From a virus, in IMG/VR virus record IMGVR_UViG_3300037258_000398, positions 1 through 28,804 of that record: 28,804 nt of DNA. One strand, 5' to 3'. Below, in pieces: positions 9,911-27,989 of this stretch (its first letter is position 1; every line of letters starts with the position of its first letter). The position numbers were made by a program, and so were the translations under genes. The notes below the pieces were generated by a model, which had not been told where the DNA came from, did not search any database, and worked only from the letters and a program-made list of their open reading frames with translations.

Positions 9911-10144
9911 TTAGGAGCAGCTCGACGCGAGCACGACATTCTGGATGGTGCCAGCGGCAAGCAGCGCGATCTGCGCCTGCACGTAAGCTTCCGTCGCCTG
10001 GGGATGGCCGCCGGCGGTAGTGCCATCATGCAGCACCAGCCGGAAATTCGTCATTTCTGGTGTGACTTCACCCGCGGCGCCGGTGAAGCCTGCAACCTGC
10101 GTTGCGGTGCCGCGTCGGAGTTGAACCTGCGTTGCCGTGCTCAT
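9911..10144 (-). CDS. stand-alone Mtd N-terminal-like domain protein
   Basis: A 77-residue protein that matches the N-terminal domain of major tropism determinant (Mtd)-type phage receptor-binding proteins: VQLRRGTATQVAGF (7-20), then GEVTPEMTNF and RLVLHDGTTAGG (25-46). In Mtd-like proteins this domain attaches the fibre to the virion and is followed by a C-type lectin domain. Here the protein ends after a short helix (QATEAYVQAQIALLAAG). No lectin domain follows, so it is either a separate adaptor or a trimmed fibre. The ATG overlaps the stop of the collagen-like fibre gene (ATGA), implying coupled synthesis with that fibre. Confidence 0.8.
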   Translation of the reverse strand: MSTATQVQLRRGTATQVAGFTGAAGEVTPEMTNFRLVLHDGTTAGGHPQATEAYVQAQIALLAAGTIQNVVLASSCS

Positions 10145-11832
10145 GCTGCCAATCCGTAATCGAAGCTTTCAAGGACGCTGTCGGTGACGCTGCCAAGATC
10201 GCCGACAGGGACGGTTCCCCCGATCGGCATGCCCGATGACCAATCCGCCGTTGTGTTCGAATCCTTGGCGAACAGCACGAACGGCGACACATCGGTTTCC
10301 ATGAAGATAAACGGCGGGGATTCGTTGTCGTAGGCCGCACGCTGCGCCAGCGTGCCGGTGGCGTTGGGCGAAATCCCCTCGCCCTGATCGCCCTGAATAC
10401 CTTGCGACCCGTCGTCGCCCTTTTCGCCGGCAATCGAAATGAACCAGTTCGACGCCGCGCCAGAGCCTTCCACGTCATCGACGTCGATCGTCAGCATCGA
10501 ACCGCTATAGGAGGTCAGCACGCCTTCCATGATCTTGCTAACGTCTGCCGAAATGACCCGCAGCCGTTGTCCAAACGTCCATGCGATGCCGAGCTGGGTC
10601 GAGAAGCTTGCACTGCCGGTGCCGACCGAGACGCTTGACGTGCTCGTTCCGGAAATGACCGGCGTGGGTCCTTGCGTCCCGACCGGGCCGGGTCCGCCCG
10701 TCGCGCCCTGGATGCCCTGCAGGCCGCCAACCGAAATCGTCCAGGAGGAAGCCGTGCCGGCACCGTTGACGCCGTCGACATTGATGACCAGCGCCGCGCC
10801 GGAATAGGACGTGACCAGGCCCGACAGGCTGATCGATAGGTCCGCGCTGGTGGCGACTAGGCGCTGGCCAGATTGCCAGGCAATTCCCGACTGGGTGGTG
10901 AACGAGCGGCTGCCGGCGCCGGCAGTCACGCTCGACGTCGACGTGCCCTGGATGACCGGCGTGGCACCGGTGTCGCCCTTCGCTCCGATCAGGCCCCATG
11001 TGCCGGGGTTGGTGGCTGGGTCGACATTGGTGCTGTCCAAGAACGCCAGATAGGCGCGGCCATTGCGGTCGACGATGTCGTTGACGACGTAGGCCGTGCC
11101 GCTGTCCCATACGCCGCGGCTGTTGATGCCGATCGGCGTTGCCTGCAGCACCCAGGCGCCGGAAACCTTCAGCCACTGCTGCCAGGCGCCGGCATTGGTC
11201 TTCAGCGCATATTGGCCATCATCCCCGATGCCGGGATCCGGCGCCGCGCCGGTCACCGAGTAGATGACGCCGGCACCGGCGAGCAGCGTGAGCAGCTGCC
11301 GCGTGGTGGCCTGCGTCAATGACGGGTCGTTGCGCTGCCATGAATTGGGAATGATGCGGTAGGCGTAATCGACGACGGTCGCCGTGTGGGTGCCGGACTG
11401 CGACCCGGACGTGTTGATCGCTGCGCCACCGGGCGAAGCCGACACCGATGCACTGCTGCCGCTGATCGAGGAGCCGACGATATAATATTCTGTCCCTGCC
11501 GTGAGGCCTGTGGGCAACGCGCCAGTCGTGGCAAGCTTGATTCCGTCGTTGGGTTGCGGCGCATAGCCGGCAGGAAACGCGATGACGCCCGGGCTGGCGA
11601 TCGTGATCGTGACCGTGCCGGAAATCGGCGTGACCGCGATCGGGTCCATGAATGTGCCCGAGGCGTAGCCGGGCGAGTCGATGCTGTCGATAATCGCCGA
11701 GGCATTGAGCGCCGGGATGAACAGCTCGTCGCCCTGCACCACCGTCGCCGGCAGCCACGCGACGCCGGTGCCGGTGAAGGTTTTCGAGCCGTTGGTGACC
11801 GCGACGGTGCCGGTCGCGTAGGAGGTGGGCAT
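10141..11832 (-). CDS. modular tail fibre with collagen-like segments
   Basis: A 563-residue fibre. Residues 1-160 are beta-rich (MPTSYATGTVAVTNGSKTFT at the start, a common phage fibre beginning). At about 195-235 lies a short segment ending GAWQQWLKVSGAWV. At 239-283 lies a carbohydrate-binding-like RGVWDSGTAYVVNDIVDRNG with the end TWGLIG, resembling chitin-binding type-V/XII modules. Two copies of an 80-residue beta module follow (291-370, 390-469), each followed by Gly-x-y runs (GLQGIQGATGGPGPVG; GEKGDDGSQGIQGDQGEG). A short C-terminal region closes it. Collagen-like runs form trimeric rods in phage fibres. It sits directly after the J-like gene. Confidence 0.85.
   Translation of the reverse strand: MPTSYATGTVAVTNGSKTFTGTGVAWLPATVVQGDELFIPALNASAIIDSIDSPGYASGTFMDPIAVTPISGTVTITIASPGVIAFPAGYAPQPNDGIKLATTGALPTGLTAGTEYYIVGSSISGSSASVSASPGGAAINTSGSQSGTHTATVVDYAYRIIPNSWQRNDPSLTQATTRQLLTLLAGAGVIYSVTGAAPDPGIGDDGQYALKTNAGAWQQWLKVSGAWVLQATPIGINSRGVWDSGTAYVVNDIVDRNGRAYLAFLDSTNVDPATNPGTWGLIGAKGDTGATPVIQGTSTSSVTAGAGSRSFTTQSGIAWQSGQRLVATSADLSISLSGLVTSYSGAALVINVDGVNGAGTASSWTISVGGLQGIQGATGGPGPVGTQGPTPVISGTSTSSVSVGTGSASFSTQLGIAWTFGQRLRVISADVSKIMEGVLTSYSGSMLTIDVDDVEGSGAASNWFISIAGEKGDDGSQGIQGDQGEGISPNATGTLAQRAAYDNESPPFIFMETDVSPFVLFAKDSNTTADWSSGMPIGGTVPVGDLGSVTDSVLESFDYGLAA
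10426..10962 (-). repeat. two tandem fibre modules, period 99 residues
   Basis: The beta module at 10962-10723 (residues 291-370) recurs at 10665-10426 (residues 390-469) with no gap in the alignment. Shared landmarks include TPVI-x-GTSTSSV, GIAW-x2-GQRL, LTSYSG or VTSYSG, and the SW/NW-x-IS ending. The copies are about 99 residues apart including the collagen-like linker. The divergence between copies shows the duplication is not recent. Confidence 0.9.
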
Positions 11833-24092: not shown

Positions 24093-24734
24093 TCACCCGA
24101 TGACAGGGACGCGGTAATTATCGAGCAGATCAGTCACGTCCGGCGGCATGTTGCCGGTTGGCCCAGAAGAGACCCACCAGCGTTGCTCGATCACGCCCGG
24201 GATGTTGCGCTCCATCAGGAAAGGATCGCGCCCACGGCCATCCCAGCGCGCCTTGACCATCCGGATGACGGCATCGGCGACATCGACTGGAATGGTCGCA
24301 AAGCCGCCCTGATACGTCACCGCAAGCGGCCATGCCGGCCACGGTCGCGGATAGCCGTCAACGGTGAGGCGAACGAGCTGGCCGTTCTTGGCGTTGATGC
24401 GGAAGTCCGTATCCTCGACCAGCGCGTTGCCATTTTCCGTTACCGAAGAGACGCTGACCACCGGCCAGCGCGAAAGCTGCAGCGTCTGGAAATGGCCTGG
24501 AACGATACGCGGCCAGCGATCGGTCTGCGCCCAGAATTCATCCGTGATGGTCTCGGCCGGAAACACCCGGTTGCAGTACTGTGCTGCTGCCGCCGAGGAG
24601 CTCGTCAGATAGCGCTGCAGAATCGCGTCCGAGGTCTTGTTGGTGATGCTGAGCTCGTCCTTGACGATGGCGAGCGTGGTCAGGTCGTAGCTCGCGGCTG
24701 CCGTAACAACGGTCGTGATGAGAGTGGGCCCCAT
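24093..24734 (-). CDS. gp6-like head-tail connector protein
   Basis: A 213-residue protein with the helical start LTTLAIVKDELSITNKTSDAILQRYLTSSSAAAAQYCNR-type pattern (about 18-56), then FPAETITDEFW, a beta region LQLSRWPVVSVSSVTENGNAL and FRINAKNGQLVRL, and the late helix VADAVIRMVKARWDGRG. This is the fold order of the HK97 gp6/Phage_connect_1 connector, which forms a ring under the portal: helices that hold substrate DNA, with an inserted beta domain. It follows the methyltransferase-glycosyltransferase gene by about 50 bases. The 213 residues exceed the roughly 100 of the smallest members but match larger ones. Confidence 0.86.
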   Translation of the reverse strand: MGPTLITTVVTAAASYDLTTLAIVKDELSITNKTSDAILQRYLTSSSAAAAQYCNRVFPAETITDEFWAQTDRWPRIVPGHFQTLQLSRWPVVSVSSVTENGNALVEDTDFRINAKNGQLVRLTVDGYPRPWPAWPLAVTYQGGFATIPVDVADAVIRMVKARWDGRGRDPFLMERNIPGVIEQRWWVSSGPTGNMPPDVTDLLDNYRVPVIG

Positions 24735-24787: not shown

Positions 24788-26029
24788 TCACACCCAGCAT
24801 TCGTCGGGGACGCCGTGCTGCTGAAAGTCCGTCATCGACTGGTAGTGCACGGCAAGATTGACGTCCGGCCAGCGCGCCATTAGCTCGGCGTGGCCGATGG
24901 CAACCCGATTGGCAAGATGGAGCGAATGACCGGCCGCTTCCCATTTGCGCCAGAATTCGATGTCCTCGTCGACGTGGCCGTCGTTCCAGTCGCCCGATTG
25001 CGACGGCGTCGAATGAAACCACGGCTTCGGTAATTCGCGAAGCTTGCTCGTTCGGATCAGCGTGAGGCCGAAATGCGCGGTCCGGACCGAGGAGGTCTCG
25101 CTGTCGAAATAGCTGCGCGGGATGCGCGGCGCATTATCGCCTTCGGTGCCGCGCACGGTGAACAGCGTCGTCGGCAGATGCCGCGACGACTGGATCGGCG
25201 CCAGCGCATCGATGTCCGGCCGCAGCATCATGATCTGCATAAGCCGCGCCAAGTGACGCGGCAGGAAGATCGAATCGTAGTCGATCGTCAGGATGGCGTC
25301 GGCGTCATCCTCGGCGAGGATGCGCTCGAACACCTTCGACATCGACTGGCCCCAGAACGCGCCGCCATGCTTGCGCAGCTTCACCTTGCAGGGCATCACC
25401 GCTTCGATGGCGCAGAAGAAATTGTCCATGAAGCCAAGCCGCGGCACGCTCATCGCGCCCGACACCTTGATCTCCGACATATGAGGCTTGTAGGCCTCGA
25501 GGTTGAGCGAGATCGGATAGGCGGCGCAATCGTCGATCTCGGATTGCCACGGCTGGATCAGCACCAGGTCGAGATCGGAGAACAGCACGCGCAGCTTGTC
25601 GCGATCAAATAGCGCGCGATGATAATCGTTCTGATCGGTCTGGCCACCGAGCACATAGCCTTCGGTCGGCTGCTGTTTGCCGGCGAGATAGTCCTCAGCG
25701 ATCTTCTTGAAGTCCGGCACCGCGATGCGAAGGCGCCCGCCCTTCTTGAGCACCCGCACCCAGTCCTTGAGCACGGCGGCGATCTGGCCGTGCGGAAAAT
25801 GTTCGAGGCAATGGCTGGCGCGAATGTCGTCCACTGTCTCGTCGCCATACGGCAGCGGGAAGATTTCCGAGCCGTGATCGCGGCCGAGCGGAACGAAGCC
25901 CGGCGGCGAGACCTGGCCGGCGCCGAGATCGAGACGAACGGCCTTCTCGCCAATTACGAAAGGGGCACCGCTCGTAGCTGACTCATCGAAGCTACGGGAC
26001 GCAATCATCTGAATGTCGGGGTTCTTCAT
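24788..26029 (-). CDS. methyltransferase-glycosyltransferase fusion
   Basis: A 413-residue bifunctional protein. The start at 26029 has AGAGG about nine bases upstream; an in-frame ATG 15 codons earlier is inside the upstream hairpin region. The N-terminal half is a compact SAM-dependent methyltransferase: VRLDLGAGQ (31-39), then IFPLPYGDETVDDIRASHCLEHFPH (56-80) and LKKGGRLRIAVPDF (94-107). The C-terminal half is a GT-A-type glycosyltransferase: ADAILTIDYDSIF with the D-x-D metal site (243-255), LMQIMMLRPDIDALAPIQSS and DEDIEFWRKWEAAGH (354-368), the usual acceptor/base region. Acceptor and sugar are unknown. It lies between capsid and connector genes, so virion modification is inferred. Confidence 0.9.
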   Translation of the reverse strand: MKNPDIQMIASRSFDESATSGAPFVIGEKAVRLDLGAGQVSPPGFVPLGRDHGSEIFPLPYGDETVDDIRASHCLEHFPHGQIAAVLKDWVRVLKKGGRLRIAVPDFKKIAEDYLAGKQQPTEGYVLGGQTDQNDYHRALFDRDKLRVLFSDLDLVLIQPWQSEIDDCAAYPISLNLEAYKPHMSEIKVSGAMSVPRLGFMDNFFCAIEAVMPCKVKLRKHGGAFWGQSMSKVFERILAEDDADAILTIDYDSIFLPRHLARLMQIMMLRPDIDALAPIQSSRHLPTTLFTVRGTEGDNAPRIPRSYFDSETSSVRTAHFGLTLIRTSKLRELPKPWFHSTPSQSGDWNDGHVDEDIEFWRKWEAAGHSLHLANRVAIGHAELMARWPDVNLAVHYQSMTDFQQHGVPDECWV

Positions 26030-26055
26030 CGGAAGCGACCTCTGTCGGGAGGGTC

Positions 26056-26085
26056 GACGGGGCCAGGCCGACACCCGGCCCCGTC
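26056..26085 (-). promoter_or_regulatory. 9-bp hairpin before the methyltransferase-glycosyltransferase gene
   Basis: GACGGGGCC (26056-26064) and GGCCCCGTC (26077-26085) form a perfect nine-pair stem around a 12-base loop in the leader between the 154-aa gene and the fusion gene. The ribosome site follows about ten bases later in the minus direction. No U tract follows, so a plain intrinsic terminator is unlikely. RNA processing, stabilisation of the capsid message or reduced read-through is possible. Confidence 0.6.
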
Positions 26086-26137
26086 TATTCAGCGCTGAAA
26101 TGACTGTCCGGCTGTCGGGCCAGACCTTAACGAACGA

Positions 26138-26602
26138 TCAGCCCTCGACGAGGTTGAGGACGCCAGCCTTGGTCGCGGTGTTCGGCGCCTGCTCGGCGCG
26201 GAAGCCGTTGGCGGTAACCTCGAACGTCTGGGTCGCGGTCGGCGAGATCACGACGTTGAGGTAGCGCTTGCGGCTGCGGGCATCGACATTGAACTTGTAG
26301 GCATTCACGCCCGTGGTCTTGCCGATGGCGACCTGGAAATCGACGTTGGTCGCCGTCGCAGAGCCGCCGCGGAAGCCAACGATGTCGGCAAACGAGGTGA
26401 CGACGGTGGTGTCGCTTTCCTGGATCTTGAGAATGGACGGCGAACCCGCCTGGGTCGACGCCGACTGCGTCGTCGCGGAGATATCGATCGTGCAGTAGTC
26501 GACACCGAGCAGATCGATGTTGGCGGAAGTGAACGTGCCGGCGTTGGTCGCCGAGCCCGACCCGGTGACGGAATCGAGCAGAAGCTTGGCCTGCGGAACC
26601 AT
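26138..26602 (-). CDS. hypothetical beta-rich virion protein after the capsid gene
   Basis: A 154-residue protein with AGGAG nine bases before the ATG. It has alternating Thr/Ser/Ala strands (GSGSATNAGTFTSANIDLLG, then DYCTIDISATTQSAS), a centre with QVAIGKTTGVNAYKFNVDAR and the ending TFEVTANGFRAEQAPNTATK. The pattern suggests a beta barrel or sandwich, consistent with a small head decoration protein or a spike/fibre on the capsid. It follows the major capsid gene by about 58 bases. I do not recognise a family and no enzyme motif is seen. Confidence 0.75.
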   Translation of the reverse strand: MVPQAKLLLDSVTGSGSATNAGTFTSANIDLLGVDYCTIDISATTQSASTQAGSPSILKIQESDTTVVTSFADIVGFRGGSATATNVDFQVAIGKTTGVNAYKFNVDARSRKRYLNVVISPTATQTFEVTANGFRAEQAPNTATKAGVLNLVEG

Positions 26603-26660: not shown

Positions 26661-27989
26661 TTAGGGCGACTTCATGCCGACCAGCGGTCCGGCGGTCGCG
26701 GTGTCGCCGAGGTCGTGGCAGTTCACATCAAACCGCTCGGTACCGAGCAGTCCGATCTGATCATTCTCGAAGTAGCGATGGTCTGATCGCTTGATCGTGA
26801 CGCCGCGCCGCTCGCCCATCATCGCGGCTTTTGACAGATCGCCGAACGCGATCATGATCTTGCCGCTACCAGGCGTGGCGATCGGCAGCTTCTGCGCAAC
26901 CGATACATTGAAGCCGAGTAGCCGCTTTTCGAGGCCCATGGCGAGCACGTCGAGACGGTTGCCGCCAGCGCCAGCGAGGATCGTCGCGACCATCGTGTAG
27001 AACGCCTGCTGCGACATGTACCACTTGGCGCCAGCGATCGCGTATTGCGGCAGGAGGCCGATCAGACTCGTCAGGTCTTTCACGACCAGCGCGTTCCACG
27101 TGGCGCTCGACGCCTGGTATACGCCCCCGCCGTGGCTCGAATCGATCAGCAATTGCGTGAAGCCGCGCATACCGCCGTAGGCCGACGTGCCGTCACCGTT
27201 GAAGCCGCAATCGTCCTCCTTCGAGGCGAACGCGTAGGCCATTTCGCCGACCAGCCAGTCGGCAATGGCGACCACAGCGTCCTGCTCGATTTCGGTCGAC
27301 ATGCGGGTGAGCACGGCGGCCTTTTTGGCGGTCAGGTTGACGCCGTCCCAGGCCGCCGTCGACTCGGTCGCGGACTGGTTCTCACCGGTGAAGAATGCCG
27401 TGAGGCCGCCCGTTCGGCGCGGCCAGTTGAGCGTGTCCGAACCCATCGGCACGACCTGGCATTCCTGCCGGAAAACGCCGAATTGTTCACGAAGCACGAT
27501 GATGCTGGCCATCAGCTCTTCCGGCACAAGGAAGCCGCCAGCGCTATCGACACCTTCGCCCTGGGCCTTCTGGATCGGCACACCGCGCGACTTGCACCAT
27601 TCTTTGGCTTCGGCGTTGTCGAGCACGGTCGCCTTGAACCACATACCGACCGTGTAGGCCTGGTCGACGGCGCGCACCATGCGGCCCTCGATCTCGCGAT
27701 CGCGGAAATGCTTGATCGTGCCGTAGAGCTTATGAGCGCTCGGCGGCGCGAACGGCGTGAGCCGATCCTGGCCCGGCACAGGCGTCGCGAGATTGGCAGC
27801 GATCTTCTCGGCCTCTTCGACGCGACCGATCTGTTTGTTGATATCGACGAACTTCTCCTTCAGGGCATCGTAGATGTCCTGCTTGAAGCCTTCGTCTTCC
27901 GACTTGCCGGCCATCGCTTCGATCTCATCAGACAGCTTCGAGAGCGCCTGCTTGAGCTCGTGTTTCTTGCTCATTGTATGGGTTTCCAT
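26661..27989 (-). CDS. major capsid protein, HK97 fold
   Basis: A 442-residue protein (or 437 if the internal ATG at 27974, with GGAAA about eight bases upstream, is used; the first ATG has no clear ribosome site). An N-terminal charged coiled coil (about 7-66, KHELKQALSKLSDEIEAM and on) is the delta scaffold domain that the prohead protease removes. The mature part has GGFLVPEELMASII (151-164), a late WFAF-like FFTGENQSAT (199-208) and the hallmark GFNGDGTSAYGGMRGF (262-277), with IAFGDLSKAAMMGERRG near the end, as in HK97-fold capsids. It follows the protease gene by about 110 bases. It builds the icosahedral head. Confidence 0.95.
   Translation of the reverse strand: METHTMSKKHELKQALSKLSDEIEAMAGKSEDEGFKQDIYDALKEKFVDINKQIGRVEEAEKIAANLATPVPGQDRLTPFAPPSAHKLYGTIKHFRDREIEGRMVRAVDQAYTVGMWFKATVLDNAEAKEWCKSRGVPIQKAQGEGVDSAGGFLVPEELMASIIVLREQFGVFRQECQVVPMGSDTLNWPRRTGGLTAFFTGENQSATESTAAWDGVNLTAKKAAVLTRMSTEIEQDAVVAIADWLVGEMAYAFASKEDDCGFNGDGTSAYGGMRGFTQLLIDSSHGGGVYQASSATWNALVVKDLTSLIGLLPQYAIAGAKWYMSQQAFYTMVATILAGAGGNRLDVLAMGLEKRLLGFNVSVAQKLPIATPGSGKIMIAFGDLSKAAMMGERRGVTIKRSDHRYFENDQIGLLGTERFDVNCHDLGDTATAGPLVGMKSP

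Follow-up and report, generated by a model that had tools for sequence, protein, structure and literature searches.

A phage head operon encodes a methyltransferase-glycosyltransferase fusion behind a covarying RNA leader

Phage conversion by glycosyltransferases is established, and phages are also well known to encode glycosyltransferases acting on DNA bases. Virion glycosylation has been documented in few phages. It is described for the mycobacteriophages Che8, Corndog and Myrna (Freeman et al. 2023, cited in PMC11256854, PMC12363180 and PMC12619734), and in the related F1 phage Maravista (PMC11256854) the transferases are encoded close to the genome's 3′ end, outside the head operon. PMC12619734 names DNA, host serotype and the virion as targets of phage glycosyltransferases.

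The analyzed DNA, a virus record of 28.8 kb (IMGVR_UViG_3300037258_000398, 28,804 nucleotides), is hereafter called the window, and our finding concerns one open reading frame within its minus-strand head operon:

24788..26029, minus strand: methyltransferase-glycosyltransferase (MT-GT) fusion gene, 413 amino acids, an open reading frame with 139 further non-redundant full-length relatives

The frame runs from an ATG at 26029 to a stop codon ending at 24788. We preferred this start over a GTG at 26074 because a GAGG (26042-26039) lies nine bases ahead of the ATG. The first-pass annotation of this DNA had proposed a single polypeptide carrying a compact methyltransferase and a GT-A-type glycosyltransferase, and we recovered both halves as well as the motifs it had named, LDLGAG (residues 33-38), TIDYDSIF (in which D250 and D252 form the DxD) and DEDIEFW (D354 and D356). 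The fusion has no membrane segment, with a maximum 19-residue hydropathy of 1.11. Sequence and profile searches of the whole fusion against the PDB gave weak methyltransferase matches only, while a BFVD fold search returned single-domain glycosyltransferases or methyltransferases at the top and no clear whole-fusion relative among the best 50 matches.

Relatives were collected by scanning IMG/VR with the fusion protein and with alignments and by one scan of species genomes. They fall into 144 clusters at 95% identity, 139 of them full length, and conservation was scored over 140 aligned non-redundant full-length sequences, including that of the window. Nearly all of the relatives are metagenomic; among 84,980 species genomes of prokaryotes there were six near-full fusions, each on a MAG contig and several with a capsid-family gene adjoining. 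One scan returned 559 relatives, a figure that we did not use as a fusion count since MT-only relatives can pass. One phage contig carries two divergent tandem copies of the fusion (L048, 3533-4891 and 5974-7152), and in three others the fusion is included in an open reading frame of 538 to 850 amino acids (L082, 2694-4940; L087, 4627-7179; L025, 5548-7164), whose added length may be open frame upstream of the gene or further domains at the N terminus.

The two halves and their diagnostic residues are arranged as follows:

25487..25939, minus strand: class I methyltransferase half, residues 31-181; PF08241 above cut-off; G36, E76, H77, H137 and N176 in 140/140
25883..25885, minus strand: residue 49, a Gly in place of the usual Asp (the motif II acid); D in 99, G in 40 and E in 1 of 140
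24815..25480, minus strand: GT-A glycosyltransferase half, residues 184-405; structure model matches STIV A197 (Z 18.1), LH3 (18.1) and mimivirus R699 (18.0)
25274..25282, minus strand: DxD metal/nucleotide-sugar motif, D250-Y-D252; both Asp in 140/140
24962..24970, minus strand: second acidic motif, D354-E-D356; D354 in 138/140, D356 in 140/140
24890..24892, minus strand: His380 (GH motif); 140/140

Because 139 further full-length fusions share these invariant catalytic residues, the open reading frame is not a chance one, and we are sure of both the architecture and its conservation.

In the methyltransferase half, residues 56-101 match Pfam Methyltransf_11 above the curated cut-off (24.5 versus 21.2 bits), and the glycine-rich motif I is the LDLGAG to which G36 belongs. 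Position 49 of class I methyltransferases is usually an acid that binds the SAM ribose, a feature that is common but not universal. The window has a glycine there, and the methyltransferase activity of the group that shares it (G49) is uncertain because the usual acidic residue is absent. Judged by its sequences, the methyltransferase half of this group is conserved and does not look decayed, with a mean pairwise identity of 62% versus 55% for the glycosyltransferase half within an 85-sequence set. We rejected G49 as a strict clade: in a midpoint-rooted tree, the common ancestor of the 40 G49 sequences holds 62 of the 140 leaves.

The glycosyltransferase half was compared with known folds through an AlphaFold2 model of the fusion, built from seven sequences and with a mean pLDDT of 73. 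Residues 184-400 of the model adopt a GT-A fold, with Z scores of 14 to 18 over about 160 to 190 residues against GT-A chains; STIV A197, the best match, has an rmsd of 2.7 over 164 aligned residues, and ColGalT1 follows at Z 14.8. The matched stretch of LH3 (about 290-520) is one that we take to be an accessory domain and not the catalytic one. The Pfam GT2 model PF13632 covers residues 246-376 below its curated cut-off (17.2 versus 27 bits), and we therefore label this half "GT-A, GT2-like" and not a member of GT2. To the glycosyltransferases of sequenced phages it is related by fold matches only, for example to mycobacteriophage Ardmore gp87; tblastn of the window protein against INPHARED (50,697 phage records) matched the methyltransferase half and gave no match to the glycosyltransferase half.

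The genes around the fusion are those of a head operon, and the neighbors named in the first-pass annotation were all identified:

26661..27989, minus strand: major capsid protein, HK97 type; PF05065, 5.6e-43
26138..26602, minus strand: 154-amino-acid beta-sandwich protein rich in Ser, Thr and Asn, a candidate acceptor and a candidate decoration protein; model pLDDT 87.7
24093..24734, minus strand: head-tail adaptor, gp6-like; phrog_442, 2.4e-32

In the order of transcription, the capsid gene is followed by the 154-aa gene, the fusion, the head-tail adaptor and then connector, tail-tube and tape-measure genes. No terminator-like site was found on the minus strand between 22000 and 28804, and cotranscription with the capsid genes is plausible, given the shared strand and the absence of such a site between them. 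The window also encodes a tail-region protein (10141-11832) with a weak CBM_5_12 match below cut-off, a possible host-binding protein.

The same domain pair is found in the head modules of other phages. Among 133 non-redundant loci with room upstream, the capsid gene lies at most five genes ahead of the fusion in 128 and a member of the 154-aa family lies upstream in 127; of the 117 loci with room downstream, 83 have the adaptor no more than four genes after the fusion. The head operon had been called an unusual place for a sugar-modifying enzyme, but this slot is the rule for the fusion family, and related phages have a hot spot of such enzymes there. We examined it in two samples of loci that were not seeded by the fusion. 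In the sample seeded by the 154-aa protein, 37 loci extended 500 bp or more downstream, and every one of them carried the fusion family, in one case (L306) without a recognizable methyltransferase half. When seeded by the capsid, 63 non-redundant loci comprised 40 with the fusion, 4 with the glycosyltransferase family but without this methyltransferase, 15 with the 154-aa family alone and 4 with none by profile.

Other enzymes are found in the slot as well. In L388 and L390, the same glycosyltransferase stands behind an unrelated Methyltransf_9-type methyltransferase (PF08003); L331 has Methyltransf_24 with an Anp1/GT2-type glycosyltransferase; L403 has the reverse order, a glycosyltransferase-like N-terminal half (read from the sequence, with Pfam silent) and a C-terminal Methyltransf_24. 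Methyltransf_23 is joined to an MptE-like domain in L341, an MptE-like domain stands alone in L340 and, by likeness, in L360, and L456 holds a GT8-like gene with a standalone glycosyltransferase. Between the 154-aa gene and the fusion, 30 loci carry inserts, 41 open reading frames that include 9 GDP-mannose 4,6-dehydratases, 8 sulfotransferases, 6 cytidylyltransferase-like proteins and also FkbM-type methyltransferases. The L017 dehydratase scores 540.8 against a TIGR01472 cut-off of 415, and the same locus has a GDP-fucose-synthase-like gene at 496.5 versus 500 bits. Together, the slot and its inserts read as a gene cassette that makes modified sugars and attaches them. No sugar-nucleotide gene was recognized among the scanned open reading frames of the window itself. 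Two cytidylyltransferase-like proteins (L076, 5324-5992; L088, 1549-2223) have, by eye, a MazG-like tail and are encoded beside a sulfotransferase, downstream of the 154-aa gene and ahead of the fusion; another open reading frame (L275, 4859-6001) joins a cytidylyltransferase domain to a weak GHMP-kinase C-terminal match.

A fold search of the 154-aa protein for a known decoration protein returned generic beta sandwiches only, with a best Z of 9.0. This protein does not need the fusion, since it is present without it in 15 of the 63 capsid-seeded loci. The converse dependence, of the fusion on the 154-aa protein, gave a 44/15/0/4 table (Fisher p 0.0065) that we rejected as evidence because the four loci scored as lacking the beta protein have a profile-missed small beta-type open reading frame at that place and because the loci share ancestry. 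Serine and threonine make up 22.3% of the 154-aa family in fusion-bearing loci versus 18.6% in the others (p 4e-5), the two sets looking like different clades. N- and C-terminal Ser/Thr positions are present in the fusion-bearing loci and absent from the others; as a pointer to the acceptor site, these columns are suggestive only, given that the sets look like different clades.

Directly upstream of the fusion is a structured RNA leader, which the first-pass annotation had missed; the two domains, GT-A catalytic residues and head-operon location that it named are supported. The leader lies downstream of the 154-aa stop codon and ahead of the start of the fusion:

26106..26125, minus strand: leader hairpin 0, GUCUGGC-CCGACA-GCCGGAC, loop CCGACA; 28/36 sites versus 1.6% by chance, 6/7 pairs with compensatory changes
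26089..26098, minus strand: 10-nt palindrome TCAGCGCTGA (UCAGCGCUGA in the leader) between hairpins 0 and 1; perfect palindrome in 31/36 sites versus 5.7% by chance, with differing sequences
26056..26085, minus strand: leader hairpin 1, 12-bp stem, loop UGUCGG; 12/12 stem pairs with compensatory changes
26039..26052, minus strand: leader hairpin 2, CCUC-CCGACA-GAGG; 4/4 stem pairs with compensatory changes

The 3′ arm of hairpin 2 is the GAGG that serves the fusion gene as its Shine-Dalgarno sequence. Pair counts for stems 1 and 2 come from 26 aligned sites, in all of which loops 1 and 2 are perfect complements. When hairpin 0 is included, 22 sites give a covariation score of 0.505 with one way of writing the loop pairing and of 0.492 with the other, compared with 0.20 for shuffled and at most 0.145 for slid partners. 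In four phages, a different loop 1 is accompanied by matching different loops on both sides:

L024: UGCCGG/CCGGCA
L027: GUUCGG/CCGAAC
L256: UGUGGG/CCCACA, with the hairpin 2 stem reduced
L274: UGUGCG/CGCACA

Single-strand folding of the leader gives a z of only -1.88, and since loop-loop pairing is outside that model, the case for the leader rests on the covariation, of which we are sure. None of the 4,227 models of Rfam 15 matched at gathering; the best (E 4.3, 9.6 bits versus a gathering threshold of 45) was the snoRNA sR10, overlapping the coding start. A search, not exhaustive, of the literature on kissing-loop leaders in phages found no matching description.

The window holds one copy of the leader, at 79.3 bits, the next best site scoring 12.1. 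Across the family, it was found in 31 of 40 G49 loci and in none of 100 others; being limited to part of the family, it is not needed by the fusion enzyme as such. Its position can also differ. In L237 and L017, a GDP-mannose dehydratase comes first and the leader lies about 40 to 50 nt before the dehydratase gene, while in L013 the leader stands behind the fusion and ahead of the dehydratase. Further copies with loop codes of their own occur behind the tail-tube gene (PF18906) in L471, L472 and L031. A protein-blind pattern scan of IMG/VR returned 22 contigs, in most of which the leader follows the 154-aa gene and precedes the fusion; L485 has it before a dehydratase followed by the fusion, L484 between fusion and dehydratase, and L483 and L487 behind the tail-tube gene. 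The copies behind the tail-tube gene (L471, 1353-1438; L472, about 1245-1330; L031, about 11540-11600; L483; L487) have the loop codes UAUCGG/CCGAUA, UGGCGG/CCGCCA or UGUCGG/CCGACA. In L481, L489, L490 and L492, no fusion, dehydratase or tail-tube gene was recognized adjoining the leader. The identified contexts place it behind structural genes and before genes presumably needed in small amounts, and its role is likely to be a low, perhaps switchable, translation of such genes. Leaderless loci often have plain stem-loops behind the 154-aa gene, some with T runs (e.g., L271, L269 and L263), and these stem-loops may be a different means of keeping the enzyme's expression down.

On balance, and with moderate confidence, we propose that the fusion, a late head-operon product, is a soluble enzyme that modifies sugars in two steps in the cytoplasm, acts on a head protein and has its translation held low by the leader RNA. 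The glycosyltransferase half would take a sugar from its nucleotide donor, perhaps, in some relatives, a GDP-linked 6-deoxyhexose made by the adjacent phage dehydratase, and attach it to a freshly synthesized head protein; the most likely acceptors are the 154-aa beta-sandwich protein, which is rich in Ser/Thr, and the capsid protein. The methyltransferase half would methylate the transferred sugar or the acceptor, and small amounts of enzyme would glycosylate and methylate the head protein before or during assembly. The leader would hold the output of the fusion at a level suited to an enzyme and separate from that of the abundant capsid proteins. Complementarity and covariation point to hairpin 2 hiding the Shine-Dalgarno sequence and to its CCGACA loop kissing the UGUCGG loop of hairpin 1, which could clamp the ribosome site. 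Hairpin 0, made first and bearing the same CCGACA loop as hairpin 2, might compete for hairpin 1 and open the site. Transcription speed, ribosomes leaving the upstream stop or a protein could tip the balance, and the effect may have the opposite sign.

Whether both halves act in the G49 group has to be weighed. Only the glycosyltransferase half might be enzymatic there, with the methyltransferase half a non-catalytic substrate-binding or dimerization module, as Gly for Asp at position 49 in 40 of 140 sequences could suggest. The glycosyltransferase of the family also stands alone in L456 and L091, and the L306/L335 lineage (contig IMGVR_UViG_3300042370_000002) keeps it and the linker behind an unrecognizable N-terminal half, a natural glycosyltransferase without the methyltransferase. 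We nevertheless consider this rather unlikely: the methyltransferase half is at least as conserved as its partner in the G49 group, its motif I glycine and LEH residues are invariant, and in other phages unrelated methyltransferases are fused at the same place.

The target can be questioned too. The first-pass annotation had set modification of a virion protein beside that of a host surface glycan, which would imply a receptor change or superinfection exclusion, as with O-antigen conversion cassettes. GT-A/GT2-like transferases, GDP-mannose dehydratases and methyltransferases do also build surface polysaccharides. However, no flippase or membrane transferase was recognized adjoining the soluble fusion, and in nearly all loci it is fixed between capsid-associated and connector genes, inside the head operon, a position from which its synthesis would come too late to shield the cell. 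We consider a host glycan an unlikely target. The lack of a membrane segment and the head-operon position favor a virion protein, and with the constant neighborhood and the sugar-nucleotide genes of relatives these make it the better of the two inferences and the likely target. Phage DNA, for which the known base-modifying glycosyltransferases offer a precedent, or a small metabolite would be a very improbable substrate, as the Pfam and PHROGs matches of the scanned window open reading frames include no modified-base genes and the constant neighbors are structural genes.

For the leader, we give a slightly better than even chance to a new class of cis-acting RNA, in which tandem hairpins share one loop code (a, a′, a) and hairpin 1 kisses hairpin 0 or hairpin 2, forming an RNA-only switch that would meter virion-modifying enzymes and low-copy genes behind abundant structural genes. 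Its competing loop-loop pairings are backed by natural covariation, with compensatory changes in stems and loops, and it suggests a way in which phages express an enzyme at a low level inside a capsid operon. Three things are new as far as our searches reach: an MT-GT architecture bound to the head operon, such fusions recurring in a single slot, and the leader RNA. A widespread enzyme family that can be recognized by sequence, sits in one slot and comes with repeated fusions and sugar-donor genes makes the extent, the sugar and the purpose of capsid glycosylation testable.

Compared with known systems, the methyltransferase half resembles the compact SAM methyltransferases (PHROG 6636, Methyltransf_11), presumably COG4627-like, in motif I, SHxLEH and compact order, and the window group differs from them by the Asp-to-Gly change at motif II and the fused glycosyltransferase. 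STIV A197 (PDB 2c0n) has a viral GT-A fold like that of the glycosyltransferase half but is a single-domain protein of an archaeal virus with 13% identity to it. LH3, ColGalT1 and R699-type enzymes glycosylate proteins; these collagen-type glycosyltransferases share the GT-A domain at 12 to 18% identity, but they are eukaryotic or from a giant virus and linked to hydroxylases rather than to methyltransferases. The O-antigen conversion cassettes (gtr) have a membrane-bound transferase, unlike the fusion, whose neighbors are head genes. Che8, Corndog and Myrna likewise have phage-encoded glycosyltransferases, and there capsid and tail-tube proteins carry glycans. The leader shares a cis hairpin over the ribosome site with leaders that mask a Shine-Dalgarno sequence, and loop-loop complementarity with kissing-loop RNAs, but differs from both in its three tandem hairpins with one co-changing loop code. 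We know of no MT-GT fusion or leader RNA in the mycobacteriophage systems; in the phages described here, the two together suggest RNA-controlled decoration of their own capsids.
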